A DNA stretch of 39,341 nt from a virus. Both the position numbers and the translations under genes were made by a program. Location: positions 1 through 39,341 of the IMG/VR virus record IMGVR_UViG_3300042896_000391. One strand, given 5' to 3'. This document shows positions 3,853 to 39,341 of the stretch, in pieces. The notes beneath the pieces were generated by a model. That model did no database searches. It was not told the DNA's origin and saw nothing but the letters and a program-made list of their open reading frames with translations. How positions within the stretch are numbered: position 1 is the first letter of the stretch; each line of letters opens with the position of its first letter.

Positions 3853-4068
3853 GTGCACGTGTCGATTACCACCGGCATGAGCATTGAACAGGTTCGTGAG
3901 CAATTCGACATTCCCCGCCTGAAAGCGTTTAACAGTTACACAGAAAAGTACCCGCCGCAACACTTGCTGATTGCCAGTTATTTTGGTTTTCCCAAAGAGA
4001 AGGCCAAACAAGCTGACGACGCAACACTGGCGGGAATGATGGCAGAGTTTCAACAGGTGCAGCGATGA
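3853..4068 (+). CDS. Tail assembly chaperone, T extension of the GT fusion
   Basis: As a separate ORF it would start at a GTG at 3853 and give 71 residues, but the frame is open upstream through the candidate slip site. A G/GT fusion of roughly 189 residues is therefore more likely. The T region begins WNELFVHVSITTGMSIEQV and contains PPQHLLIASYFGFPKEKA. A motif with Trp, small residues and helices after a Gly-rich linker is typical of these extensions. The stop overlaps the ATG of the tape measure gene. Confidence 0.7.
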   Translation: MHVSITTGMSIEQVREQFDIPRLKAFNSYTEKYPPQHLLIASYFGFPKEKAKQADDATLAGMMAEFQQVQR

Positions 4069-6569
4069 GCGACAACACGGTAGAAATCAAGTTTGGCGCA
4101 CAGACTGGCCCTTTGAAAGAAGGCACCAACCAAGCCGCCGCGTCGGTTGAAGGCTCTGTCAGCCGAATGAATGCCGCCTTTGCGGACATGGCGGCAAAAA
4201 TCAAAGGTCACACCGCTTCGGCGATTGATTCGTCATCCTCAATGGCGACTGGCCTTAAGGGGCACTTTGAAACGGTGGGCGGTGCTGTTGGCAAGCTGAA
4301 CGGCGGGTTGCTGGCCTTTGCCGCTGTCCTGGCTGGAGGTTCCTTTTTTAAAAGCGCCGTTGATGAATCCAAGCAGTTCACTTCCGAAGCCGTCAAACTT
4401 AGCCGCGCCTTGGGCATCACAGTGGACGAGGCGTCAGCGCTAAACGTTGCTCTAGGCGACATTTACTCAAGCGCTGAAACCTTTATTGGCGCTTCGCAGA
4501 TGCTTACGCGAAACATTCGCACGAATGAGCAGGGCATCCGAGAGATGGGTGTAGCAACCCGAGATTCTTCAGGGCACTTGCGACCCATGCAAGAAATCAT
4601 GATGGACTCGCTCAAAACTCTGAGTAATTACAAGCAAGGTGTTGACCAAAATATTGCTGCACAAAAGCTGTTTGGTCGTGGAGCCGCCGAAGCCTCCCAG
4701 CTGCTTAAATTAAATAGCGCGGTCATTGAAGAGGCAAAAAACAAACAGCAGGAGCTTGGGCTTACTGTTGGCAAAGAGAATGTCGAGGCCAGCAAAGCAT
4801 ACAAAGCCGCCATGAATGATGTGGGTGACGTGCTGCTGGCTGTAAAAAAAGTCATCGGTGATGCAGTGATGCCCGTTCTTACCCGGCTGGGTGAGTGGTT
4901 TTCAAAGCTCATGCCTCCTGCTATCTTTGCGCTCAAGGTGGCTTTTTCGACGCTGGCTAGTGTCGTGATTGCCGTCATGGGCGTGCTTGAGGCCTTGGGG
5001 GAAATCATTATTGGCCTAGCAGCGCCCATCATGGCGTTTGGCCGTGCCATCAAGGCGCTACTGTCAGGCGATATGACCACCGCCACCAAAGAGATGCAGG
5101 GCATGTGGTCAACCTGGGGCGACAAAATGGGTGAGGCTTTCGAAAAAGCCAAAGCATCCGCCTCACGGTCATTGGCTGACATCAAGGCGCAGTGGGGAAA
5201 GCCTACGGCTATTTCAGCGCCTACAGGTGGCAAGACAATGGGAGAAGAAGACCCCGACAAGGGCAAATCTCGCATGGGCAAGTGGGACGCCGAATTGACG
5301 GCGGCCAAGGTTTCCTACGAAAAGCAAAACGACCTGCGCGAGATGAGCAAGCAGCAGGAAATGGCTTATTGGGAAGAATTGAAAAAGCGCTTCAAGCTGA
5401 CCAAAGAAGAAATGCTGTCCGTCGGTCAAAAAATTGACTCGCTCCAGTTGGCAATGAACAAGGAAAACATTGCCGAACAAATTGCCGCCAAAAAAGCGGA
5501 AATGGAAAGCTGGAAAAACAACATGGTCGAGCGTCTTCGCATTTCCGAAGAGCACTATGCGATTGTGGTGAAGCGCTATGGCGATGAGAGCAAAGAAGCC
5601 AAAGCCGCTCAAGCCGAAATTGACCGCGTAAAGCGGCAAAGTGCCGAGCAGTTAAAAAAAGCAGAACTTGACGCCATGGAAATGCGCCGCAACATGGCCA
5701 TGGGCGACATTGAGATTGAAGAACAAAACGCTCAGGCACTTTTTCAGCAAGGCATGATCTCCAACGCGGAAATGCTAACCCTTGAGCAGCAGTTTGAAGA
5801 TGCTCGATTTGCCATTAAGAGCGCTGCGCTTGATGAGCGCATGGCTTTGTTACTTAGTGACCCGGACGCCAACCCGGCAGAGATTCGCAAGACGCTAGAC
5901 CAAGTGATTCAGGTTCAGCAAGAGCACCAAGCGAAGCTGGCCAACATCCGCAACGCCGCCGCTGCAGAAGACCGAAAATACGACAAAGCGTTTGCCGATG
6001 GCGTGGGCAATAGTTTTGGCAACATGATTAGCAACGTGCTGTCCGGCACCATGAAAGTGCGGGACGCTTTCCGCTCCATGGCTCAATCAGTGCTCAGTAC
6101 CTTCACTGGCATGATTGGAAAGATGGCCGCAGAGTGGATGGCCCGCAAGCTGTTGGAAAAAATCATCAGCGCCAAGTCGGCGGCGGGCGATATTGGGATG
6201 CAAGCAGCCAAGGCAGGTGCGGGCGGCGTGGCATCAATGGCTGCGGCACCTTTCCCATTGAACACGCAAGCGCCAGCTTTTGGTGCTGCCATGTCGGCCT
6301 TGGCTGGGAGCTATATGGGCATGCTGGCCCCTGCTGCATCAGCCGAGGGCGGCTTTGACATTCCAGCCGGCATGAATCCCGTGACGCAGCTTCACCAGCG
6401 CGAGATGGTTTTACCAGCTCAATATGCGGACGTAATCCGAGGCATGGGGGAGGGCGGCGGCAAGGCGGCAGCGCCCAACGTCACGCTGCAACTGCACCCC
6501 GACGCCATGCGTTACACGCTGCAAGACTGGCTGCAAGGCGAGTTGGCACGAATGGCGGCGCAGCGATGA
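4065..6569 (+). CDS. Tape measure protein
   Basis: This 834-residue protein fixes tail length and probably helps DNA entry. It has an N-terminal helical region, a hydrophobic stretch at about residues 285-330 (VAFSTLASVVIAVMGVLEAL), and a long charged coiled coil from about residues 400-640 rich in Glu, Lys and Ala. A C-terminal lambda-type segment (DAFRSMAQSVLSTFTGM, MAAEWMARKLLEK) follows, then a Gly/Ala-rich tail. Using the lambda ratio of about 0.15 nm per residue, the tail would be near 125 nm. It overlaps the chaperone stop by four bases and is the longest gene in the window. Confidence 0.92.
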   Translation: MSDNTVEIKFGAQTGPLKEGTNQAAASVEGSVSRMNAAFADMAAKIKGHTASAIDSSSSMATGLKGHFETVGGAVGKLNGGLLAFAAVLAGGSFFKSAVDESKQFTSEAVKLSRALGITVDEASALNVALGDIYSSAETFIGASQMLTRNIRTNEQGIREMGVATRDSSGHLRPMQEIMMDSLKTLSNYKQGVDQNIAAQKLFGRGAAEASQLLKLNSAVIEEAKNKQQELGLTVGKENVEASKAYKAAMNDVGDVLLAVKKVIGDAVMPVLTRLGEWFSKLMPPAIFALKVAFSTLASVVIAVMGVLEALGEIIIGLAAPIMAFGRAIKALLSGDMTTATKEMQGMWSTWGDKMGEAFEKAKASASRSLADIKAQWGKPTAISAPTGGKTMGEEDPDKGKSRMGKWDAELTAAKVSYEKQNDLREMSKQQEMAYWEELKKRFKLTKEEMLSVGQKIDSLQLAMNKENIAEQIAAKKAEMESWKNNMVERLRISEEHYAIVVKRYGDESKEAKAAQAEIDRVKRQSAEQLKKAELDAMEMRRNMAMGDIEIEEQNAQALFQQGMISNAEMLTLEQQFEDARFAIKSAALDERMALLLSDPDANPAEIRKTLDQVIQVQQEHQAKLANIRNAAAAEDRKYDKAFADGVGNSFGNMISNVLSGTMKVRDAFRSMAQSVLSTFTGMIGKMAAEWMARKLLEKIISAKSAAGDIGMQAAKAGAGGVASMAAAPFPLNTQAPAFGAAMSALAGSYMGMLAPAASAEGGFDIPAGMNPVTQLHQREMVLPAQYADVIRGMGEGGGKAAAPNVTLQLHPDAMRYTLQDWLQGELARMAAQR

Positions 6570-10814: not shown

Positions 10815-11272
10815 GCAACATCCTCACTTATCTGACACAGGCGGACATTCGTGACGCTGAGCCCGAGATTCAAGGCAAAACCCTGACGCGCCCGGCGCTG
10901 CTGGTGACGGATGGCTCCAGCGTGGTTTACGCCTGTGATGTGGACATTGGCCGGGACGCGCCACTGCGCAACGTGCCTGTTGCATCCGGCAATAACCAAC
11001 TGCTCTACGCCGAAGCGGGTGCGGCAGTGATTTTGCGCAAGACAGCCAGCGGCCAGTTCACCATGGTCGGCTTTGCCAAGGAAATGCCGGGCACGTACAT
11101 CCGCATTCCCGTCACGATCTCAACCGGCGCGTTTGGGCCAACCCAAAACATTTCAATCACCTCTCGCCCCTTGACGCTTGGCGAACTGGCCTCTTATGGC
11201 GGGTTTGGCTTTGTGCCGCTGGGCTCCATTGCCACATTCCAAGGTGGCGTACTTATCGGGATTCAATCATGA
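10811..11272 (+). CDS. Tail-tip associated protein, function unknown
   Basis: This 153-residue protein is coupled by ATGA overlaps to the hub-like gene upstream and the fibre gene downstream. The N-terminal 80 residues are beta-rich (RPALLVTDGSSVVYACDVDI); the C-terminal half ends in GFGFVPLGSIATFQGGVLIG. I see no catalytic or metal-binding motif. It may link hub and fibre. Confidence 0.65.
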   Translation: MSNILTYLTQADIRDAEPEIQGKTLTRPALLVTDGSSVVYACDVDIGRDAPLRNVPVASGNNQLLYAEAGAAVILRKTASGQFTMVGFAKEMPGTYIRIPVTISTGAFGPTQNISITSRPLTLGELASYGGFGFVPLGSIATFQGGVLIGIQS

Positions 11273-12168
11273 GCATTTCATTGCCACGTTACACCAGCGG
11301 CGACACCAACTACGTCGCCAATTTAAACAACACCAATGAGACGGTGGAAAACTCCATCAACTCGCTAAGCAATCAATTGATTGGCATCCCCAATTCATCC
11401 ATTTCCGTAGGCACCTACCTGCCAGCCGCACTGGGCACGGTTACTAGCCTGATTGGCGTTACATCTTGCGTGCCCACCGGCTCGGGCGCTACGCTGACTG
11501 TGCCAGCCGGGTATGTGTGGGTGCCATCGGCGTCAACAGTTGTATCAAAAGCGGCAAACACCATCAGCTTTACCGGCCTTGCCGCGGCGACTTACTACGT
11601 GGATGTGGACTCAACCGGCTCAGCCACCCGACAGACCTCCAGCGGCGGCAACACGATTTACGCCGTTGCCTGGACGGGCTCGGCTTTTGGCGCGATTACC
11701 CGCGTGTGTCCCGTGCTGTGGAGTGCTGCGGACATTCAGGCCGCGCAACTGAGTGCGGCTTACGGCACCACGTACTTTGCGCTTGATGATCGTTTTGAAG
11801 CCAGCGAGTCCAAAATTAACGCGTTGCAAGCGCTGCCCTATGACGTGGATTTTTGGCAGTCGGGCAAGCCGGCCGCTGGCCAAGTGCTGAAAAAGCTCAA
11901 GGTCTCCAAAAACACCACCTACCCAGCCAGCCTGACAGGCTCCACGGTAGTGACGGCTGACGCGGCAGCTACGGCAAATGCTGTGTTCTCTATCGCCAAG
12001 AATGGCGTTGAATTTGCGACGTTAACCTACTCGGCAGGTAGTGCAAATGGTGTTTTTGCCGGGACTGTCTCCTACTTCGCAGCGGGTGACCTGCTCAGCG
12101 TAAAAGCCCCAGCCTCACAGGATGCAACACTATCTGGCGTCGGTTTTGTGCTGTCAGCATTCCGTTAA
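11269..12168 (+). CDS. Tail fibre-like protein
   Basis: This 299-residue, Ala/Ser/Thr/Gly-rich protein is the last structural gene before lysis. It starts MSISLPRYTSGDTNYVANLN, a pattern common at the N-terminus of short siphovirus fibres that plug into the tail tip. The middle is beta-rich (GATLTVPAGYVWVPSA). The C-terminal third (YDVDFWQSGKPAAGQVLKK) resembles distal fibre modules carrying a QSGKPxAGQ motif. It is a second possible host-contact protein besides the fibres at 32980-36998. Confidence 0.65.
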   Translation: MSISLPRYTSGDTNYVANLNNTNETVENSINSLSNQLIGIPNSSISVGTYLPAALGTVTSLIGVTSCVPTGSGATLTVPAGYVWVPSASTVVSKAANTISFTGLAAATYYVDVDSTGSATRQTSSGGNTIYAVAWTGSAFGAITRVCPVLWSAADIQAAQLSAAYGTTYFALDDRFEASESKINALQALPYDVDFWQSGKPAAGQVLKKLKVSKNTTYPASLTGSTVVTADAAATANAVFSIAKNGVEFATLTYSAGSANGVFAGTVSYFAAGDLLSVKAPASQDATLSGVGFVLSAFR

Positions 12169-28890: not shown

Positions 28891-30298
28891 AGCGCAGGCC
28901 ATTGCCTTAGCCGCTCAAATAGAAGCGAGGGAAGACCTGTATTTCTTTTCCCGCTACATGTTTCGGCACCGCAAAGGCTTTAAATGGAAGCACAGCGACC
29001 ACCACCGGGTTATATGTGACGCCTTGATGCGGGTGTACCGGGGTGAGTGCAAGCGCCTCATCATCAACGTGCCGCCAAGGTACTCCAAGACGGAATTGGC
29101 TGTTGTCAACTTCATCGCGTGGGCATTGGGCAAACACCCGGATGCTGAATTTATCCATGCCAGCTATTCAGCCAGGCTGGCTACTAACAACAGTTGGCAG
29201 ACCCGCACTGTCGTGGAATCGCAGGAGTACTGGGGTATATTTCCCGAAGTGGTCTTGCGCCACGACTCCAACGCCAAGGACGAATGGCGCACCACCGAAG
29301 GCGGCATCATGTACGCCACCGGCTCAGGCGGCACGATTACCGGCTACGGCGCGGGCAAGATGCGCCCCGGCTTTGGTGGCGCCATCATCGTGGATGACCC
29401 CCACAAGGCCGATGAAGCCACCAGCGACACTATTCGCAAGAACGTAATTGACTGGTTTGGCAACACACTGGAAAGCCGCAAGAACAGCCAGGACACGCCC
29501 ATCATCATCATCATGCAGCGATTGCATGAGTCCGACCTGTCCGGCTTTTTGCTGGGCGGTGGCAATGGTGAGACTTGGGAGCACGTCAATATCCCGGTCA
29601 TTTCCGAAGATGGCCAGGCACTTTGGCCACTCAAGCACTCGATTGACGAGTTGCGGGCCATGGAAAAGGCCAATCCTTACGTCTTTGCAGGCCAGTACAT
29701 GCAGCGCCCGGCACCCTTGGGCGGCGGTATCTTCAAAAACCACTGGTGGCGCTATTACAGCGAGTTGCCGCATGTCAAACGCATAGTTCAATCATGGGAC
29801 ACGGCGTTTAAAACCAAGCAATCGGCAGACTTTAGCGTTTGCACGACATGGGCAGAGTGTGAGCTTGGCTACTACCTGATTGATAGCTACAAGGTCAAAG
29901 TGGAGTTTCCAGAACTGAAGCGGGCGGCACTTTCATTGTTTGAAAAATACAAGCCGCACGCTGTGCTTGTCGAGGACAAAGCCAGTGGCCAAAGCCTAAT
30001 TCAAGAGCTAAAACGTGATACCCGGATGCCCATTGTGGCCGTCAAAGTGGACGCAGATAAAGTTTCGCGTGCATTTGCAGTAACCCCGTTGGTAGAATCG
30101 GGAAGAGTATTCCTACCAGAAAAGTCGCATTGGTTGGCTGATTTTGTCGCCAGTATGGGCACTTTCCCGAACGCTGCGCATGATGATGACGTGGACAGTG
30201 TGACGCAGGCGCTTAACTATTTGGCGCGGGGTGGTGGGGCTACAGGCTTGCTTGATTACTACGCGGAAGAGGCGCGAAAAATGAGGGAATCTAGATGA
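28880..30298 (+). CDS. terL: Terminase large subunit
   Basis: This 472-residue packaging motor uses the ATG at 28880 inside terS. The ATPase domain has a Walker A-like NVPPRYSKTE (about 63-72), then AIIVDDPHK as Walker B (about 168-176) and TPIIIIMQRLHESDLSG as coupling motif. The nuclease domain has SWDTAFKTKQSADFS, VLVEDKASGQSLIQEL, and AAHDDDVDSVTQAL, giving the three acidic clusters of an RNase H-like fold. It cuts and translocates DNA into the prohead. Cos or headful packaging cannot be told from this sequence. Confidence 0.95.
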   Translation: MNFEAQAIALAAQIEAREDLYFFSRYMFRHRKGFKWKHSDHHRVICDALMRVYRGECKRLIINVPPRYSKTELAVVNFIAWALGKHPDAEFIHASYSARLATNNSWQTRTVVESQEYWGIFPEVVLRHDSNAKDEWRTTEGGIMYATGSGGTITGYGAGKMRPGFGGAIIVDDPHKADEATSDTIRKNVIDWFGNTLESRKNSQDTPIIIIMQRLHESDLSGFLLGGGNGETWEHVNIPVISEDGQALWPLKHSIDELRAMEKANPYVFAGQYMQRPAPLGGGIFKNHWWRYYSELPHVKRIVQSWDTAFKTKQSADFSVCTTWAECELGYYLIDSYKVKVEFPELKRAALSLFEKYKPHAVLVEDKASGQSLIQELKRDTRMPIVAVKVDADKVSRAFAVTPLVESGRVFLPEKSHWLADFVASMGTFPNAAHDDDVDSVTQALNYLARGGGATGLLDYYAEEARKMRESR

Positions 30299-32529
30299 AT
30301 GCACCCGTAAAAACTCCCATTTCGCCGGGCCTGATTGACCGTGTAGTTCGCGGCGTCAAGTACGTGGTTAGCGGCGCCGGGCCGGATGAATGGTTTGGCC
30401 CGCAGCAGCCTTTGCAGCCTTTTGCGCAGGAGCAAGCAAAAGGACGCCAGTTCGATTACCCAGTTGGCTACAACGTCAACATTCAGCCACGCGCCTACGA
30501 GCCGACCAGCTTTGCCCAATTGCGGGGACTGGCTGATAACCTGGACCTGCTGCGCTTGGTGATTGAAACCCGCAAAGACTTGATGTGCAAGCTGGCGTTT
30601 ACCTTCAAGCCGATTGACCCCAAAGCTGAAAGCGATGATAGGTGCGACCAGCTGAACGAGTTTTTCCGCTTCCCCGACCAAGAACACACTTGGGACGAGT
30701 GGCTTCGGATGTTGTTAGAAGATCTGTTTGTCATTGATGCCCCAGCTATTTACCCGCGCCTGAACTTGGGCGGCGGGTTGTATGCGCTGGAGCCAATTGA
30801 CGGCGCTACGGTCAAGCGGGTGATTGACGGCACAGGCCGCACCCCGCAGCCGCCCGAGGTGGCTTATCAGCAAATCCTCAAGGGCATGCCTGCGGTGGAC
30901 TATAGCCGGGATGAGTTGATTTACAAGCCGCGCAACCTTCGCACTTCCAAAGTGTACGGGTACAGCCCGGTCGAGCAAATCCTGATGACGGTCAACATTG
31001 CACTGCGCCGCCAGGTGAGCCAGATGCAGTATTACAGCGAAGGCTCCACGCCTGACCTCATCATGAGCGTGCCCACTGAGTGGAATCCTGACCAAGTACG
31101 CCAATTTAAAGACTGGTGGGACTCCATGCTGGCAGGCAACACAGGCGCCCGGCGCGGCACGATGTTTGTGCCCAGCGGCGTCAACCCGGTCAACACCAAA
31201 GAAGGGATGCTGAAAGACGGTTACGACGAGTGGTTGGCCCGCGTGATTGCCTTTGCGTTCTCCATCAGCCCACAGAACTTGATTTCACAAGTGAATCGGG
31301 CTACGGCTGAAACTGCCGCCGAAGCTGCAAAAGAAGAGGGTCTGGCCCCCATCATGATGTGGGTGAAAAACCTCGTTGACTACATTGTGTGGAAGCACTT
31401 TGGCTACAAGGATTTACACCTGTCTTGGACGGACGAGAAAGACCCCGACCCTCTCCAACAAGCGCAAATCAATCAGATTTACATCAATGCTGGCGTGAAA
31501 GATGCGAACGAGGTGCGCGAGGAAATTGGCCTTGATGCTTTGACGCCGGAGCAGGAGCAGGCCATTGCCGCCAAGAAGGTGCAGGCCGCACAGAGCGCCA
31601 TGAGTGCCATGGGCGGGGGAAAGCCGGATGCCAAAGACCCCAAAGAGGATGAAGACCCAGCCACTGAGAAATCGCCGAAGGCTGAAAAGCTGGAGAAGCG
31701 CGGAAAAAAGCCCATGCGGGTGCTGGCCCCGCTAAATCGCCAGCGTCTGGAAATCATCCGGGCACGCGCAAAGCTGACTACCCTTATTGAAGGCACGTTC
31801 AAAACCTTTGCCAAACAAGCCGCAGCGCAGGTTGTGGCCGGGTATGACAAGCTGACCAAAGCCGAAGACTTGAAGGGCATGAGCGACCAATTGATTGATG
31901 GCGTAGAGCTTGATTGGGATGAGTTCGCGCGCGACATTAATCCGCTGTTGTTCACCATTGCCCTGGACGGCGTGGGCGAGGCGGCAACGCAAATTGATCT
32001 GACGTTTGGCACTGCGCTTGACTTGGCCAACAAACGCGCCGAAGCCTATGCGCTAGAGCGGTCGGCTGAAATGATCGGTAAAAAGTGGGTAGATGGTGAG
32101 CTGGTTGCCAATCCAAGGGCTGAATGGGTTGTCAGCGAATCCACCCGCGACATGTTGCGCGGTCAGGTGACAAACGCTATTGAAGAGGGCTGGAGCAACG
32201 ACAAGCTTGCGGCCTCGATTGAAGACGCCCACGCCTTCAGCCCGGAGCGTTCATTAATGATTGCCCGGACTGAAACCGCCATGGCTGATGTAGCGGGTAA
32301 CGTGGCCGCTTACAAAGAGGCCGAAGCATTAGGTATTGAAGTGCTAAAACAGTGGGTGACTGCTGAAGACGATCTTGTAAGTGAGGATTGCGCCTTGAAT
32401 GGCGAGTCACCGCCTTTGGGTATGGATGACGCGTTCCCCAGTGGTGTGCAGTTTCCCCCCGATCATCCAAATTGCCGGTGCGACTTCCTGCCAGTGCTGT
32501 TCACAGACTTGATTGAGGGCAAATCATGA
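30295..32529 (+). CDS. Portal protein fused to a MuF-type head morphogenesis domain
   Basis: This 744-residue protein combines two usually separate proteins. Residues about 1-440 are a portal: YVVSGAGPDEWFGPQQPLQP, FRFPDQEHTWDEWLRMLLED, NPVNTKEGMLKDGYDEWLAR, AFAFSISPQNLISQVN. A charged linker (about 440-475) leads to a MuF-like region (SPP1 gp7 type) ending in MIARTETAMADVAGNV and HPNCRCDFLPV. Portals form the dodecameric DNA gate; MuF proteins act in early head assembly. The fusion would put a MuF copy on each portal subunit. No stop or frameshift interrupts it. Confidence 0.88.
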   Translation: MNAPVKTPISPGLIDRVVRGVKYVVSGAGPDEWFGPQQPLQPFAQEQAKGRQFDYPVGYNVNIQPRAYEPTSFAQLRGLADNLDLLRLVIETRKDLMCKLAFTFKPIDPKAESDDRCDQLNEFFRFPDQEHTWDEWLRMLLEDLFVIDAPAIYPRLNLGGGLYALEPIDGATVKRVIDGTGRTPQPPEVAYQQILKGMPAVDYSRDELIYKPRNLRTSKVYGYSPVEQILMTVNIALRRQVSQMQYYSEGSTPDLIMSVPTEWNPDQVRQFKDWWDSMLAGNTGARRGTMFVPSGVNPVNTKEGMLKDGYDEWLARVIAFAFSISPQNLISQVNRATAETAAEAAKEEGLAPIMMWVKNLVDYIVWKHFGYKDLHLSWTDEKDPDPLQQAQINQIYINAGVKDANEVREEIGLDALTPEQEQAIAAKKVQAAQSAMSAMGGGKPDAKDPKEDEDPATEKSPKAEKLEKRGKKPMRVLAPLNRQRLEIIRARAKLTTLIEGTFKTFAKQAAAQVVAGYDKLTKAEDLKGMSDQLIDGVELDWDEFARDINPLLFTIALDGVGEAATQIDLTFGTALDLANKRAEAYALERSAEMIGKKWVDGELVANPRAEWVVSESTRDMLRGQVTNAIEEGWSNDKLAASIEDAHAFSPERSLMIARTETAMADVAGNVAAYKEAEALGIEVLKQWVTAEDDLVSEDCALNGESPPLGMDDAFPSGVQFPPDHPNCRCDFLPVLFTDLIEGKS

Positions 32530-32639
32530 GCAATCCAATCACCAACTTGGGGCAATTGGCACAACTGAAATTGTGTGCTTTTTTGTCTTTAAGTACTACC
32601 ATTACGGTAGATCAAACACTAAAAAAGGCGGAAATATGA
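32526..32639 (+). CDS. 37-residue coupled micro-ORF after the portal
   Basis: This ORF (MSNPITNLGQLAQLKLCAFL, then SLSTTITVDQTLKKAEI) starts in an ATGA overlap with the portal stop and ends in an ATGA overlap with the next gene. Such double coupling argues for translation, either for the peptide or to carry ribosomes to the next start. A hydrophobic middle hints at a helix. Confidence 0.5.
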   Translation: MSNPITNLGQLAQLKLCAFLSLSTTITVDQTLKKAEI

Positions 32640-32977
32640 GCGCGGGAATCGTTAAATTGCCATGCGACCAAGGTGCTACGTTTCAGTTGGCGCTGACGTA
32701 TCGCAACCCTGACCAGACGCCTGTGGACTTGACTGATTACACCGCTGAAATGCGCGTGGCAGCAAACAAAGGCGGGGCGCTCGTCCTGCACCCCACTACT
32801 ACCAACGGTCAAATTTTCCTCAGTGATGGCGAATACAACGTGCTGGTGACGGTGCCCGCTGATGTGACCGCATTGCTAATACCAGGGCAGTTTGTGCACG
32901 AATTGGACTTGACTAGCCCCAGTGGCATTGTGATTCGCCTCATTGAAGGCTCATTCCCTATTGATGCAAAGGTCTAG
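32636..32977 (+). CDS. Fibre-associated or baseplate-type small protein
   Basis: This 113-residue protein uses the ATG at 32636 (MSAGIVKLPCDQGATFQLAL), with AAGGCGGA upstream. The beta-rich pattern (DLTDYTAEMRVAANKGG, FLSDGEYNVLVTVPADV, SPSGIVIRLIEGSFPI) resembles N-terminal domains of upper baseplate or fibre-anchor proteins (BppU-like). It lies directly before the collagen-like fibre gene, suggesting it connects that fibre to the virion. Confidence 0.65.
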   Translation: MSAGIVKLPCDQGATFQLALTYRNPDQTPVDLTDYTAEMRVAANKGGALVLHPTTTNGQIFLSDGEYNVLVTVPADVTALLIPGQFVHELDLTSPSGIVIRLIEGSFPIDAKV

Positions 32978-32979
32978 CC

Positions 32980-34917
32980 ATGGATGTAGTCATTCAATAC
33001 GTCAAAAACACCGTTGAGCTTTTGCAGACGGCTGTGAAAGTAGAAGTTACCGCGCCCGGGCCGCAAGGTGGCAGGGGCGAACCTGGGCCACAAGGCACCG
33101 TAACGCCTGAAGTCACAGCCTTGCGCGATGAGGCTGTACTTGCAGCAGCAGACGCCGCCGCATCAGCGGTAGAGGCCGGCCTGTCCGCAGGGTTGGCAGA
33201 GCAGGCCGTCATTGATGCGGCTAATGCTTCGCGCCTGACGATTGGCACAGTGGAAACACTGCCACCCGATGGCACATCAGAGGCAACCATTACCGGGGTT
33301 GCTGGCAGTCAGGCGCTAAATCTAAAGCTGGTGACAGGGCTGCAGGGTGAGCCAGGTGAAGACGGTATTGATGGCGTGGATGGGCTGAGTGCTTATCAAA
33401 TAGCTGTGATAAATGGCTTCATCGGTACTGAGGTTGAATGGCTGGCATCGCTAGTGGGTGCAGATGGGACGGACGGCACGAATGGGACGGATGGTAGTGA
33501 TGGACTAAGCGCCTATCAGATCGCTGTCATCAATGGCTTTGTGGGCACAGAAGCCGAATGGCTGGACTCACTTCAAGGAACGGACGGCACCAATGGTACA
33601 GACGGCGTAGGCGTTGTTGCAGGCGGCACTACAGGGCAGGTTCTGACGAAAGTTAGTGGCACTGACTACGACACCACTTGGACGACTCCCGGTACAGGTG
33701 GTGGTGCTGTTGATTCTGTCAATGGACAGACGGGCACTGTCGTTCTCACAAAAGAAGACATTGGGCTATCTGCAGTCAACAACACTTCTGATGCAAATAA
33801 GCCAGTAAGCACCGCGACTCAGATGGCGTTAGACCTAAAGGCTAATCTTGCCTCTCCAACATTTACAGGAACGGTTGGTGGCATTAGTAAGGCAATGGTT
33901 GGGCTTTCAAACGTCGATAACACGGCTGACTCTGCCAAGCCTGTAAGCACCGCCACCCAGACAGCCCTTGATCTAAAAGCCCCATTGACTCACGTAGGCA
34001 CTGGGGGCACCCAGCACGCTACTGCAACTACTTCAGTTGCTGGCTTTATGTCTGCTGCTGATAAGACAAAGATGGATGGCCTTGCGACTGTTGCCGCATC
34101 GGGCGCATATGCAGATTTAAGCGGAAAACCAACGCTTGGCACCGCAGCGGCTACTGCAGCCTCTGATTACGCAACAGCGTCTCAAGGTGCTAAGGCTGAC
34201 AGCGCCCTCCAGCCTGCAGCCATCGGCGTGTCTGTCCAGGCCTATGCGGCCGGAACAGTGGTGGATAGCTCGTATGTCCACACGGATAACAACTACACGA
34301 CAACCGAAAAAACCAAGCTGTCCGGCATCCAGGCGGGAGCAGAGGTCAACGTCAACGCAGACTGGGCGGCCGCTTCCGGTGATGCGCAGATACTTAACAA
34401 ACCCATATTGGGCACAGCTGCCGCTACAGCTATTACTGACTACGCAACAGCCGCCCAAGGAACTAAAGCAGATTCTGCTCTGCAACCTGCTGCCATTGGC
34501 GTGAGTGTACAAGCCTATGACGTTGACCTAACTTCGTGGGCTGCTATCCCTCCGTCTTCAAAGCAGGACACGCTAGTGTCTGGCACGAACATTAAGACGA
34601 TCAATGGTTCCACTATTTTGGGCAGTGGTGACTTGACGGTGAGCGGGGGAGGTGCAACGGCCTATACAGCTTCAGTATCGACAGCTTCCTGGACAGGTAC
34701 AGGCCCATACACCAAGACAGTTAGTATCACCGGTCTAACAAGCTCCAGCAAAGTCATTCTAGACCTTGATATGTCGAGTGCAGCTTTTTCTGATGTGACA
34801 AACATTCAGGCAGCTTATGCATTGCTATATCGTGCTGTTCCCGGAACTGACTCTTTGACGCTATACGCCACCTCTTCTCCGGCTATAGCTTTTAATATTA
34901 ACGCAACGGTGGTTTAA
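32980..34917 (+). CDS. Tail fibre with collagen-like repeats
   Basis: This 645-residue protein has several repeat classes. There are Gly-X-Y collagen-like stretches at about residues 27-39 (GPQGGRGEPGPQG), 120-135, 160-174 and 200-210. Two copies of GLSAYQIAVINGF followed by a GTE-EWL segment lie 40 residues apart (135-158, 175-198). Further pairs include NKPVSTATQMALDLKA / AKPVSTATQTALDLKA and two LGTAAAT-ALQPAAIGVSVQAY blocks. Trimeric, elongated fibres carry such modules. The C-terminal 100 residues are a beta-rich tip. It lies between portal and protease, an unusual place. Confidence 0.8.
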   Translation: MDVVIQYVKNTVELLQTAVKVEVTAPGPQGGRGEPGPQGTVTPEVTALRDEAVLAAADAAASAVEAGLSAGLAEQAVIDAANASRLTIGTVETLPPDGTSEATITGVAGSQALNLKLVTGLQGEPGEDGIDGVDGLSAYQIAVINGFIGTEVEWLASLVGADGTDGTNGTDGSDGLSAYQIAVINGFVGTEAEWLDSLQGTDGTNGTDGVGVVAGGTTGQVLTKVSGTDYDTTWTTPGTGGGAVDSVNGQTGTVVLTKEDIGLSAVNNTSDANKPVSTATQMALDLKANLASPTFTGTVGGISKAMVGLSNVDNTADSAKPVSTATQTALDLKAPLTHVGTGGTQHATATTSVAGFMSAADKTKMDGLATVAASGAYADLSGKPTLGTAAATAASDYATASQGAKADSALQPAAIGVSVQAYAAGTVVDSSYVHTDNNYTTTEKTKLSGIQAGAEVNVNADWAAASGDAQILNKPILGTAAATAITDYATAAQGTKADSALQPAAIGVSVQAYDVDLTSWAAIPPSSKQDTLVSGTNIKTINGSTILGSGDLTVSGGGATAYTASVSTASWTGTGPYTKTVSITGLTSSSKVILDLDMSSAAFSDVTNIQAAYALLYRAVPGTDSLTLYATSSPAIAFNINATVV

Positions 34918-34919
34918 TT

Positions 34920-36998
34920 ATGGATGCACTTATTGTTAGACGTGGCGGTATAGTCTCTGCTTTGATAGATAAATCGGTATGGTCGCAGGCGTACTATGAC
35001 GCTGTTTACGCGGCTGGGCCGGGGTCATGGTCACGCCCTGAGTGGCGTACATTGCCTACTATGGCTTCAACTGACCAAAAGTTTATCGGGCTTCATGCAG
35101 TATTTCCAGAGGACGGAAACTTCTGCGCACTGACAGCTTCAGGTGCTTACACCGTTGATTGGGGCGATGGGGTTATAGAAAACTTTGGCACTGGCGTACA
35201 AGCAAATCATCTGTATGATTACACAGACGCTGATCTTGCAGGCACTGACGCTCCTGTTAGTTTTATTGCAGCAACTAGCACTATCAACCGCACAGCGCAT
35301 GGATTCAGCAATGGAAAGAAAGTCACTTTCTGGAATATTGTCAGCACTATGGGTATAGTCAATGGTCAAGTTTACTATGTTGTAAATGCTACTTCTAATG
35401 CGTTTCAAGTATCAGCAACCTTAAATGGCGCAGCTTTAACATTGACAAACGATGGTAGTGCGTCTTTGACTCGCTACAAGCAAGCAATTGTTATTGTGAC
35501 GCCACAAAGTGGGCAGAGCCTGTCGTCAGTTAACCTAAATGTTAAATATTCAGCGATTAGCGCACTTCCAGTATATTCGACCGGCTGGCTTGATATTCTA
35601 GTGGGAAGTCCTAATTTTAGTAACTTAGTTATAGGTTTAACTTCAACAACCGAAACAATAAAAAAGAATGCAATTGAGAGAGTTAGGGTATTAAATCTTG
35701 GATCAATCACTTCTTTAGCTTACAGATTTTCAAGCTTGAGAGCGCTGGAAGTAATTGAGCTACCAAGCACGTCAAATGTGTCAAACATGTCAGGAATGTT
35801 TTTAAATTGTACAAGTCTACAAACTACAAAACTGTTTGATATGTCGGCAGTCACGTTGGCGGCTGATACTTCATCTGGAATGTTCCAAGGATGTATTGCA
35901 CTTAAAACTATTCCAAACTTCAATACTCAATCTTTAATAACAATAAGTTCAACAAGCGGTGGAATGTTTTCAGGGTGTATAAGTTTGGAATGTATTCCTC
36001 TTCTAAATACTTCACTAGTTACCTCTATGGGGGGGACAGGTGCTGGTCTGTTTGGCGGGTGTAGGACTTTAAAATCAGTACCGTTATTAGATATGTCATT
36101 AAATACGAGTATGAATGACATGTTTAATGGTTGCTCAAATTTACAGAATATACCCCTCTTTAATACAGCTTCAGTAAGCGCCTTTAGTAATGCTTTTTTA
36201 AATTGCGTTAACTTACAAGCAATACCGGCTATAAATACACAGTCCGTGACATCGGCAACAAACGCATTTAATGGATGCGCTTCATTGCAAGGAATACCTG
36301 AACTTAATTTAGCAGCAGCAACAGGTACTACAAATATTGTAAATGCTTGTCTTAGCCTGTCTGGTTTCAAGGTTAACAATCTAAAAGTATCTACTTCTAT
36401 CGCTTCATGCAAATTGTCAACTTCCGCATTGCAAGAGGTTTTTGCAAATCTGGCTACAGTAGCTACATCTCAAACACTGACAATTACAAGTAACTACGGA
36501 GTCGATACGGCAGTAACAAAAGTTGTTAACACAGTTGCTCAATCTGCGGTCATTCCAATGGCAGCAACAGCAGGTCTGGTTATTGGACAGTTTGTTACAG
36601 GTACAGGGACTGGCATAACGACAGGTGTTTCTGTAGTTTCTGATGTTGTAGCTGATACTCTTGTACTGGCAGCACATGGCTTGACTAATGGAAAGCGCGT
36701 ATCGTTCTCTGCACTTGGGACAACTGCTGGAATTTCATTAAACACGGTTTACTTTGTTGTGAACGCTACAGCTAGCACTTTTCAAGTAGCTTTGACTCTT
36801 GGTGGTTCAGCTATCGATCTGACGGGAAGCAATTCCACGCTTACAGCGAAGTATCCCAGCTACATATCATCAATCACTGCAAATACATCGGTCACTTTAG
36901 ACACCCCAGCAGCGACAACGGCAGCATCTTCAACTCTGACATTCCGGGTACTTGATGCGTCCCCAGCCCTTATGAAAAACTGGGCAGTAACTTTTTAA
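34920..36998 (+). CDS. BspA-like leucine-rich-repeat receptor-binding protein
   Basis: This 692-residue protein begins after the fibre with two bases between. Residues about 40-110 include WGDGVIENFGTG, typical of BspA/DUF285 proteins. From about 265 to 500, repeats such as MSGMFLNCTSLQTTKLFDMS, MFQGCIALKTIPNFN, MFSGCISLECIPLLN and MFNGCSNLQNIPLFN form an LRR solenoid. A domain of about 60 residues is present twice (AHGFSNGKKVTFWN with VYYVVNATSNAFQV; AHGLTNGKRVSFSA with VYFVVNATASTFQV). The gene is visibly more AT-rich than its neighbours. It probably forms the host-binding tip; no protease or lyase motif is seen. Confidence 0.75.
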   Translation: MDALIVRRGGIVSALIDKSVWSQAYYDAVYAAGPGSWSRPEWRTLPTMASTDQKFIGLHAVFPEDGNFCALTASGAYTVDWGDGVIENFGTGVQANHLYDYTDADLAGTDAPVSFIAATSTINRTAHGFSNGKKVTFWNIVSTMGIVNGQVYYVVNATSNAFQVSATLNGAALTLTNDGSASLTRYKQAIVIVTPQSGQSLSSVNLNVKYSAISALPVYSTGWLDILVGSPNFSNLVIGLTSTTETIKKNAIERVRVLNLGSITSLAYRFSSLRALEVIELPSTSNVSNMSGMFLNCTSLQTTKLFDMSAVTLAADTSSGMFQGCIALKTIPNFNTQSLITISSTSGGMFSGCISLECIPLLNTSLVTSMGGTGAGLFGGCRTLKSVPLLDMSLNTSMNDMFNGCSNLQNIPLFNTASVSAFSNAFLNCVNLQAIPAINTQSVTSATNAFNGCASLQGIPELNLAAATGTTNIVNACLSLSGFKVNNLKVSTSIASCKLSTSALQEVFANLATVATSQTLTITSNYGVDTAVTKVVNTVAQSAVIPMAATAGLVIGQFVTGTGTGITTGVSVVSDVVADTLVLAAHGLTNGKRVSFSALGTTAGISLNTVYFVVNATASTFQVALTLGGSAIDLTGSNSTLTAKYPSYISSITANTSVTLDTPAATTAASSTLTFRVLDASPALMKNWAVTF

Positions 36999-37009
36999 AA
37001 GGGCACGAT

Positions 37010-37210
37010 ATGAGCGATACATCAGGTTTTTACAAGAATGATGAAGGTGGTTTGCTGTTTGGCCCAAACGGCGTCACCGGCCCAACCTACGACCTGCAGC
37101 GAGCAAGCCGCGATGAGCCGGTCTACCCCGTTGATAACTGGTACTGGTTTGACAGCGAGGAAGAGGCTCAGGCGTTCTTCGGCCTTCCCGAAGCTAGCGC
37201 ATCTCAATAA
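37010..37210 (+). CDS. Small fibre-linked protein, function unknown
   Basis: This 66-residue protein (SGFYKNDEGGLLFGPNGVTG, then YPVDNWYWFDSEEEAQAFFG) belongs to a type often found directly after fibre genes in phages, as far as I recall. It may be an assembly partner or small tip subunit. It ends 20 bases before a strong terminator. Confidence 0.65.
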   Translation: MSDTSGFYKNDEGGLLFGPNGVTGPTYDLQRASRDEPVYPVDNWYWFDSEEEAQAFFGLPEASASQ

Positions 37211-37230
37211 TTGACTACGCTAAAAACTTC

Positions 37231-37255
37231 AACCCGCTCAAGCAGCGGGTTTTTT
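37231..37255 (+). terminator. Rho-independent terminator after the fibre cassette
   Basis: AACCCGCT (37231-37238) and AGCGGGTT (37244-37251) form an eight-pair stem with a five-base loop, followed by TTTT. It separates the fibre cassette from the protease and capsid genes, so those need readthrough or their own promoter. The 115 bases after it, AT-rich, hold no convincing consensus promoter. Confidence 0.88.
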
Positions 37256-37370
37256 ACGCTTAAAAACTACCTTAAAAATAGCTTTTCTACCAAAATATTC
37301 ACTCAAATTCATCATTTCTGATAACATTGCCTGCATTAAAGCTACCTTAACGGGCGCATTCAAGGCTAAC

Positions 37371-38633
37371 ATGAAAAAAATCTTCGCTGAAATCTGCAAG
37401 GTCGATGAGGAAAAACGCATGGTGTACGGCTATGCCAGCACCGAAGCCATGGATGTGCAGGGCGAGGTTGTCACCAAAGCCGCCATGACCGAGGCGCTGG
37501 ATGAATACATGAAGTTTGCCAACATCCGTGAGATGCATCAGCCGTCCGCCGTGGGCGTGGCCAAGTCTGCAGAAATGGACGACAAGGGATGCTTCATCAG
37601 CGTGCACGTGGTCGATGACAGCGCTTGGGCCAAGGTCAAGGCGGGCGTTTACAAAGGCTTCTCCATTGGCGGTAAAGCCATCAGCAAAGTGGACGGCATC
37701 ATCAAGTCGCTTCGCCTGTCCGAGATTTCACTGGTAGACCGCCCAGCCAACCCTGAAGCGCTTATCACCGTGTGGAAGGCTGACGGCATCGATCAATCTC
37801 CTGAGCAAGCCGTCAACGAACTGGCCGCAATGCTGGACAAAGGCGAGATCAGCCCCGCTCGTTTGATTGAGTTGGCCAAGGCTGACATGGCTGTAAGTGA
37901 AACACCAGGCGCTGAGCCTGTTGCTGAACCAGTGATTGAGCCAGCCGCCGAAACCGCCAAAGCCGACGAGCCTGCGGACCTGCAAAAAGGCATGTACACC
38001 GTGTCCTGGTTGGCCGACTTGCTCAATTCTTTGAACAGCATCCGCAATGAAGTCAAGTGGGAAGCCGAAAGCGAAGGCGACAACAGCCCGCTACCAGCCA
38101 TGCTCAAAGACGCAGTGGAACTGTTGGCCGGAATCCTGACGGACATGGTTGCAGAAGAAACCCGCGAATTGACCGAAGAGCAGAAGGCAGACCACCTGAT
38201 TGACATTGCCAAGGCAGGCAAGACCATCAGCACGGCCAACATGACCAAGTTGCAGGCCATGCACGACCATTGCACAACCATGGGCGCCAAGTGCGCCACT
38301 GACGATGCAGCCAAGGCCGATGCAGAAACCACGCTGGCCAAAGCCGAAGTGGACAAGACCGACGCCATTGCCAAGGTTGCCGCACTGGAAACCGACATGG
38401 CCAAGCTGTCCAGCGATAACGCGCTACTTAAAGCCGAAGTCGAAAAATTAAAAGCCATGCCCGCACCGGGTAAGGCACTGCTCAAAGCCATCACGGTCAG
38501 CAAGGCCGATGACGCAGGCTTTGAAGCCAGCATGAGCAAGGTTGCGCCCGTGGTTGACGCCAAGGGTGATGTGAATGACGCGGCCTCGCTCATCAAGATG
38601 ATTCATTCAAACGGCGGCGTCATCCTTCGATAA
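37371..38633 (+). CDS. Prohead protease fused to a scaffold (XkdF/S78-like)
   Basis: This 420-residue protein has an N-terminal protease of about 150 residues with His56 in REMHQPSAVGVA, a pattern DDSAWAKVKAGVYKGFSIGG with Ser98, and LSEISLVDRPANPEA, as in XkdF-type prohead proteases. The C-terminal two-thirds are helical, acidic and Ala/Lys-rich, with a coiled coil (ALETDMAKLSSDNALLKAEV), fitting an internal scaffold. The protease would cleave scaffold and capsid N-termini during maturation. AAGG lies five bases before the ATG. The capsid gene follows. Confidence 0.9.
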   Translation: MKKIFAEICKVDEEKRMVYGYASTEAMDVQGEVVTKAAMTEALDEYMKFANIREMHQPSAVGVAKSAEMDDKGCFISVHVVDDSAWAKVKAGVYKGFSIGGKAISKVDGIIKSLRLSEISLVDRPANPEALITVWKADGIDQSPEQAVNELAAMLDKGEISPARLIELAKADMAVSETPGAEPVAEPVIEPAAETAKADEPADLQKGMYTVSWLADLLNSLNSIRNEVKWEAESEGDNSPLPAMLKDAVELLAGILTDMVAEETRELTEEQKADHLIDIAKAGKTISTANMTKLQAMHDHCTTMGAKCATDDAAKADAETTLAKAEVDKTDAIAKVAALETDMAKLSSDNALLKAEVEKLKAMPAPGKALLKAITVSKADDAGFEASMSKVAPVVDAKGDVNDAASLIKMIHSNGGVILR

Positions 38634-38692: not shown

Positions 38693-39341
38693 ATGGGTTC
38701 TAACACTACCGCCGAAACGCTGGAGCTGCTTAAAGTCGCTCAAGCCAAGCCCGACGACCTTATCAAATCGTTTGTTCAACCAGGCTCCGCAACGACCGGC
38801 CTGCAAGCGTACAACCTGGAAGCTCCTTCCAAAAAGCTGTACCCCATCTTGACGCCTTTGCGTAACTCCATCCCACGCGTGGGTGGTGGTTTTGCGACGC
38901 AAGCAAACTGGAAATCCATTACCAACATCAACGTGGCCAACGTCCGCGCTGGCGTGAGTGAAGGCCAGCGTGGCGGCGTTATCAACTACGCCATGAGCGA
39001 GAACTTTGCCGCTTTCCGTGGCTTCGGTCTGGAAAACAACGTCACGTTTGAAGCTAACTACGCCTCCAAAAACTTTGAAGACGTGAAAGCACTTGCTGTT
39101 CAGCAAACTCTTGAAGCCACTATGGTTCAGGAAGAGCGCTTGATTCTGGGTGGCAACACTTCCGTGGCCATGGGTACAACCCCTACGCCAACTGTGACTG
39201 CATCCACCACTGGCGGCACGTTGGCCGCTGCCACTTACTCGCTGATTTGCGTCGGCTTGGGCATTCAGGCTTACCTCGATGTGGTGGGCGTGAACAACGG
39301 CTCTACCGGCCAATACTTCAACGCTGCTACGGCAACTGTTC
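38693..39341 (+). CDS. Major capsid protein, N-terminal part (continues at position 1)
   Basis: The ATG at 38693 opens a frame that runs off the window end with no stop. Setting 39215 equal to position 1 gives a continuous 502-residue protein. The N-terminal part (MGSNTTAETLELLKVAQAKP) is a helical arm. It is followed by PSKKLYPILTPLRNSIPRVG, VSEGQRGGVINYAMSENFAA and VQQTLEATMVQEERLILGGN, matching the E-loop and spine-helix order of HK97-like capsids. The segment after GGN starts a Thr-rich inserted domain. It lies 59 bases after the protease gene. Confidence 0.88.
   Translation, partial: MGSNTTAETLELLKVAQAKPDDLIKSFVQPGSATTGLQAYNLEAPSKKLYPILTPLRNSIPRVGGGFATQANWKSITNINVANVRAGVSEGQRGGVINYAMSENFAAFRGFGLENNVTFEANYASKNFEDVKALAVQQTLEATMVQEERLILGGNTSVAMGTTPTPTVTASTTGGTLAAATYSLICVGLGIQAYLDVVGVNNGSTGQYFNAATATV
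39215..39341. repeat. Terminal direct repeat, right copy (circular assembly overlap)
   Basis: Identical to 1-127, base for base. It should be removed once when counting genome length or genes. It falls in the inserted domain of the capsid gene, so the breakpoint has no biological meaning as a packaging end. Confidence 0.95.

Follow-up and report, generated by a model that had tools for sequence, protein, structure and literature searches.

A BspA-like leucine-rich repeat protein as the putative tip of a side tail fibre in an uncultured temperate phage

The window analysed here is the whole stretch of 39,341 nt of IMG/VR record IMGVR_UViG_3300042896_000391. It carries a 127-bp direct terminal repeat (1–127 = 39215–39341) and a capsid gene that appears to span both of its ends, which indicates that the phage genome is probably complete, about 39.2 kb long and circularly assembled. 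The phage is temperate, as it encodes an integrase and a CI-type repressor. Other genes correspond to a tape-measure protein (4065–6569), an endolysin, an Erf-type annealing protein, a terminase, an S78-type protease and the capsid; this last assignment was made because of its place after the protease gene, its PHROG being without function. Beyond the tape-measure region, 11269–12168 encodes another protein that resembles tail fibres (PHROG 7049, C-terminal part). No tRNA, sought as a clue to attachment site or host, was found in the window, and segment 28400–39341 has no near-DNA match among catalogued phages. Among 399 genomes of the Zoogloea order, five contain homologues of the portal protein, two of which are weak, and the gene cassette described below is absent beside those five in the stretches examined.

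The original prediction, made from the sequence alone, was that a leucine-rich repeat (LRR) gene at 34920–36998 had been inserted into the head gene cluster. The locus comprises the following features:

from 28856, large terminase gene, upstream of the LRR gene
30295–32529, + strand, portal–MuF fusion (left flank); adjoins the protease in most relatives
32636–32977, + strand, gp1084, putative T5 p132-like fibre-anchor (collar) protein, 113 aa; PHROG 1084
32980–34917, + strand, collagen-like (GXY) tail-fibre protein, 645 aa; matches many tail-fibre and minor-tail PHROGs
34920–36998, + strand, putative LRR fibre-tip gene; ATG start, 692 aa, GC 0.419
37010–37210, + strand, conserved 66-aa partner ORF (GFYK...YPVDGWYWFDSEEEA; family alignment), putative assembly factor
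37231–37254, + strand, terminator-like hairpin closing the cassette, CCCGCTCAAGCAGCGGG followed by T6; z −2.85
37371–38633, + strand, prohead protease (right flank)
from 38693, capsid gene, downstream of the protease

The terminase and portal–MuF genes upstream and the protease and capsid genes downstream confirm the location among head genes. The insertion is, however, not an isolated one: the LRR gene is part of a fibre cassette that also contains an anchor, a collagen-like fibre, which ends 2 bp before the LRR gene, and a partner ORF. Since such cassettes adjoin tail genes in other phages (see below), the position in the head cluster says nothing about the position of the product in the virion.

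Within the LRR gene, the following parts can be distinguished:

35028–35264, + strand, N-cap part 1, residues 37–115; PKD-like motif YTVDWGDG, common to phage relatives
35265–35477, + strand, inserted domain copy A, FCCH-like, residues 116–186, in a loop of the N-cap
35478–35684, + strand, N-cap part 2, residues 187–255
35685–36359, + strand, BspA/DUF285 LRR solenoid, residues 256–480; units of about 24 residues
36360–36509, + strand, C-cap, residues 481–530
36510–36644, + strand, C-terminal insert, first half, residues 531–575; missing in relative L003
36645–36845, + strand, inserted domain copy B, residues 576–642; nested in the C-terminal insert
36846–36995, + strand, C-terminal insert, second half, and end of the C-cap, residues 643–692

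Both Pfam DUF285 (PF03382; 9e-15, 54.9 bits against a cut-off of 25) and LRR_5 (PF13306; 5e-9) matched the protein above cut-off, and its AlphaFold model (pLDDT 90.9, pTM 0.80) is confident apart from residues 1–34. The best solved fold match is the BspA-like LRR protein 4fs7 of Bacteroides ovatus (Z 19.3, 285 residues, rmsd 3.5), and further solved BspA-like structures (4fd0, 4fdw, 4h09, 4gt6) are among the matches; the claim of DUF285/BspA-like repeats was thus borne out. The domain of about 60 residues that had been noticed twice is likewise real, and its coordinates were nearly right: copies A and B (about 66 residues each, at residues ~116–186 and ~576–642) are identical at 30 of 66 positions, 20 sd above shuffled sequence. 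As the match of this domain to E1_FCCH (PF16190) stays below threshold (18.9 bits against a cut-off of 29.5, E 0.0016), we call it FCCH-like only. Copy A is missing from L007, L042 and other relatives. Among 60 complete family members, 13 have the insert in the N-cap only, 26 in the C-terminal part only, 9 in both and 12 in neither, which suggests two plug-in sites belonging to a family rather than a one-off duplication.

In most relatives, found by means of the portal protein, the distance from portal to protease is 22–240 bp. The closest ones (L008, L010 and L143, with L150 and L152 by partial evidence) contain 4–6 kb in this slot, including different fibres; gp1084 is present there as well, except that none was seen in L152, and the LRR gene is absent from all of them. 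The last fibre of L008, L010 and L141 ends in what we take, by eye, to be an S74-type chaperone sequence, and a different ORF of about 105 aa comes next. The presence of other fibres implies that the slot held fibres before the LRR gene arrived. A swap of this gene alone among related phages had been envisaged; its absence from their slot agrees with that, but the exchange did not involve a single gene, as the fibre, the LRR gene and the last ORF all differ as one block. By comparison of the slots, this block appears to be a module exchanged in the same place among related phages. It was also checked whether homologues of matching composition occupy this position in the whole phage group, and they do not.

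The LRR gene is, as predicted, markedly richer in AT than its neighbours: its GC content is 0.419 and its GC3 0.313, against 0.50–0.60 and 0.48–0.73 in the other genes (GC3 about 0.6–0.7 in most of them), and its codon usage fits the phage worst among all genes. GC of the phage outside the gene is 0.548, and GC does not fall below 0.510 in any further window segment of 2,079 bp (mean 0.548, sd 0.020). The AT-rich stretch that fits best by total GC spans 34706–37415. On the upstream side GC3 falls gradually, from about 0.55 in gp1084 through about 0.47 in the fibre gene to about 0.30 in the LRR gene, so the left boundary of a recent import is not clean; downstream it climbs sharply at the small 66-aa ORF (0.67). 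DNA at 37326–37400, before and into the protease start, is 78% identical to L010 across the exchanged slot, which limits the right-hand edge of the exchanged block. Near these positions, GCTACCTTAAYGGGCGCA may be a late-operon signal.

One scan with a five-member alignment retrieved relatives of the LRR protein on 357 viral contigs and at eight loci in bacterial genomes, two of which, in Zoogloea, are clearly prophage. When tblastn was run with the window-type N-cap, the L042 N-module and the 66-aa ORF, no match was obtained in 50,697 catalogued phage records; relatives in hundreds of uncultured phages, against none in some 50,000 catalogued genomes, indicate that host finding by such phages is largely unexplored. 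N-cap part 1 is most similar to L003 (84%) and L005 (81%), and the whole N-module groups with these two (support 99/97), whereas the C-module groups with L042 (98/95), its nearest relative at 65.6% identity. The C-terminal insert is missing in L003 and the N-terminal one in L042. Judged from these groupings, two phage lineages contributed to the mosaic LRR protein. The nearest neighbours of its modules are only 65–84% identical, and hence the donor is not among the sequences found; the source was likely other phages, not a bacterium or a protist. The foreign composition is consistent with the recent acquisition that had been proposed; the nearest homologues proved to be proteins of phages and not surface proteins of bacteria or protists.

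The remaining members of the cassette were also analysed. The gp1084 sequence alone matched only PHROG 1084, which has no assigned function, and one member of its family matched PHROG 3304 (L-shaped tail fibre assembly). When a profile of 14 gp1084 relatives was compared with the PDB, it matched T5 p132 (7qg9, 4.9e-6), its counterpart 8hqz (3.3e-7) and 26dk_M (1.3e-11); on this profile evidence the gp1084 family is homologous to T5 p132. The collar that p132 forms in T5 is a dodecamer and carries three L-shaped fibres grafted onto it (PMC10038345). PHROG 1084 is found with fibres at many loci and is possibly a general fibre-anchor family. Of 62 loci, 48 have a member of the 66-aa partner ORF family directly 3′ of the LRR gene; directly 5′ of it, 50 of 69 loci have a 108/121-aa ORF, preceded mainly by tail-fibre, structural and collagen-like PHROGs; as the profiles that detect both ORFs were built from the same neighbours, these counts describe the set and are no independent test. 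In the window, the fibre gene occupies the place of the relatives' 108-aa ORF, and homology of the last 100 residues of the fibre to that ORF could not be demonstrated. The structure predicted for the 66-aa ORF (pLDDT 84) gave no match in a PDB fold search, nor did the ORF match known chaperone families. A Pfam search with the family returned nothing convincing, and Caudo_TAP is absent from the Pfam matches of 38 members with E up to 1.

The same type of cassette is found beside tail genes in Zoogloea. Prophages L118 and L123 share the order lambda-J central tail fibre, 202–244-aa ORF (which in L118 matches tail and tail-fibre PHROGs), gp1084, collagen-like fibre, LRR protein and partner ORF, and the location after lambda-J makes display of the LRR protein on the tail likelier than on the head. 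The integrases of both prophages are 97% identical, compared with 40% for the LRR proteins and 42% for J. In this region, the DNA of the two prophages aligns over the beginning of the LRR gene (77%) and over the partner ORF (83%), but not over the LRR body in between. Such a pattern would be the expected trace of recognition-tip exchange or of fast change, though J diverged too. An Ig-like domain joins an LRR unit to baseplate tail protein I in a fusion protein of Klebsiella phage ST16-OXA48phi5.4.

We propose that the cassette probably builds a side tail fibre whose distal, receptor-recognising protein is the product of the LRR gene. gp1084 would hold the collagen-like fibre by forming a collar on the tail, as p132 does in T5. 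The LRR protein, which we infer to be present in the virion, would be carried at or near the outer end of that fibre, the order fibre-then-LRR being read from gene order only, and the product of the 66-aa ORF may aid its assembly or folding. In the protein itself, the LRR solenoid would be flanked by a WGDG N-cap and a C-cap, each of which has one FCCH-like module inserted in a loop. The variable surface of the solenoid would bind a component of the host envelope, and the putative host-binding role of the LRR protein is plausible. The cassette would be located at the portal–protease junction only because such fibre cassettes insert at several sites of late operons, and the present LRR block would be a recent import from a phage lineage of lower GC, itself recombinant.

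Taking into account where the cassette lies, its products might instead attach to the portal vertex or the capsid as head fibres or decorations that keep the virion near cells or surfaces. Apart from the place of the cassette between the portal and protease genes of the window, an LRR-bearing protein of L006 is encoded two ORFs 3′ of a capsid-like ORF (by eye), and the unrelated myovirus Synechococcus phage S-SKS1 independently has a WGDG-LRR gene (L127:4611–5672) between portal gp20 and protease gp21, an arrangement that leaves room for a head location. Against this, the anchor shows homology to a collar protein of the tail, the Zoogloea prophages carry the same cassette after tail protein J, the Klebsiella phage has its LRR unit on a baseplate protein and the slot of the closest relatives is filled with other fibre genes, so that we consider a head position improbable. 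A different question is what the tip would bind. In bacteria, BspA-type LRRs serve as general adhesins by which the cells stick to surfaces, and the LRR tip could be a non-primary adhesin for exopolysaccharide, biofilm matrix or debris that just concentrates the phage near its hosts, a reading compatible with display on a tail fibre. The product of the fibre-like gene at 11269–12168 could then be the main receptor-binding protein, and in T5 O-antigen is bound reversibly by the fibres that p132 anchors, the irreversible receptor being bound by a separate protein (PMC12750041). The recombinant architecture equally fits host-range switching, and we regard such a secondary role as possible, if on the unlikely side.

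The temperate lifestyle of the phage (integrase, CI-type repressor) and the terminator-like hairpin behind an AT-rich gene also bring lysogenic conversion to mind, in which a lysogen would show the BspA-like protein for its own adhesion. This is very improbable: no signal peptide can be recognised by eye in the LRR protein, no same-strand promoter-like site was found just upstream of its gene, which is packed 2 bp behind the fibre gene in the late operon, and relatives are fused to virion proteins. As for the base composition, LRR genes lie slightly below the GC of their genomes (mean difference −0.014) and two relatives reach −0.11, as would be expected if AT-richness were a constraint of LRR coding and not due to recent import. 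However, gene GC in 71 non-redundant relatives tracks locus GC (r 0.938, slope 0.83) and reaches 0.68 in GC-rich genomes, and the window gene deviates most among the 71 (−0.129 from its genome, the next one being −0.111; residual z −3.0), with a GC3 of 0.31 against about 0.6–0.7 in most genes. This tracking and the outlier status argue against an intrinsic AT bias, which we hold to be unlikely, and for import from a lower-GC genome; composition is consistent with the LRR gene having been imported recently.

Extending the proposal of a side-fibre tip, we put forward tentatively, and with some doubt, that a mobile side-fibre system diversifies recognition combinatorially. N-caps, the number of LRRs and FCCH-like modules at two fixed sites would recombine between phage lineages, and a constant p132-like anchor and 66-aa partner would let the cassette move between head-gene and tail-gene sites. 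Among uncultured phages the system might be common, though hardly ever seen in cultured ones, and its mode of variation would be somewhat like that of variable lymphocyte receptors, which are likewise built on an LRR scaffold.

With the T5 L-shaped fibre system (p132 collar and pb1) the window shares a p132-homologous anchor, a long fibre and a putative distal binding module. It differs in that its fibre is collagen-like, the tip would be a separate LRR protein and the phage is a temperate one of about 39 kb; the end of T5 pb1 is formed by an intertwined beta domain that has a self-cleaved chaperone (PMC7291167). p132 has been described as a landmark of T5-like phages only (PMC10038345), and p132-type fibre anchoring would here be extended past them. 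BspA-like/DUF285 (PF03382) surface proteins such as 4fs7 belong to the same LRR family and fold, but, unlike them, the window gene lies in a phage fibre cassette and has a phage-type N-cap, two FCCH-like inserts and phage nearest neighbours. PARCEL elements, described by Roske et al. (2010), are horizontally spread and contain the DUF285 repeat (PMC2996958), and their motif of about 25 residues resembles the tandem units of about 24 residues in the window. Identity with PARCEL was rejected, since the palindromic coding DNA is lacking: inverted repeats of at least 14 nt are absent from 35690–36460.

LRR/DUF285 annotations in phages are known, and no paper on phage LRR/DUF285 proteins as fibre tips or receptor-binding proteins was found in the open-licence literature. 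The proposal offers a testable function for many unannotated phage LRR proteins (357 viral contigs), for PHROG 1084 and for the 66-aa partner family. It also illustrates that a fibre gene inside a head cluster need not encode a head protein, and a natural LRR tip of a phage would serve well as a model for the evolution of host recognition through module exchange.

Annotated phage LRR proteins include the uncultured Caudovirales "Bacterial surface protein 26-residue repeat" entries, a PKD protein of S-SKS1, a DUF285 protein of Vibrio phage pir03 and the tail protein I of Klebsiella phage ST16-OXA48phi5.4. They share the DUF285/BspA LRRs, some of them also the WGDG N-cap, and are annotated without assigned function or cassette partners. 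Short unannotated records named Listeria phage LM 4-11-1 or LM 4-14-1 (OR846746, OR846765, OR848117 and others) carry differing LRR genes and look like contigs of a mixed sample, not of a single phage. At L007:5289–9641 two LRR genes are adjacent, the first of them fused to a protein with a sub-threshold Phage_stabilise match. In Flavobacterium supellecticarium (L119:575–7281), three LRR genes with a WGDG N-cap lie within 7 kb, two of them directly after an ORF of about 118 aa.
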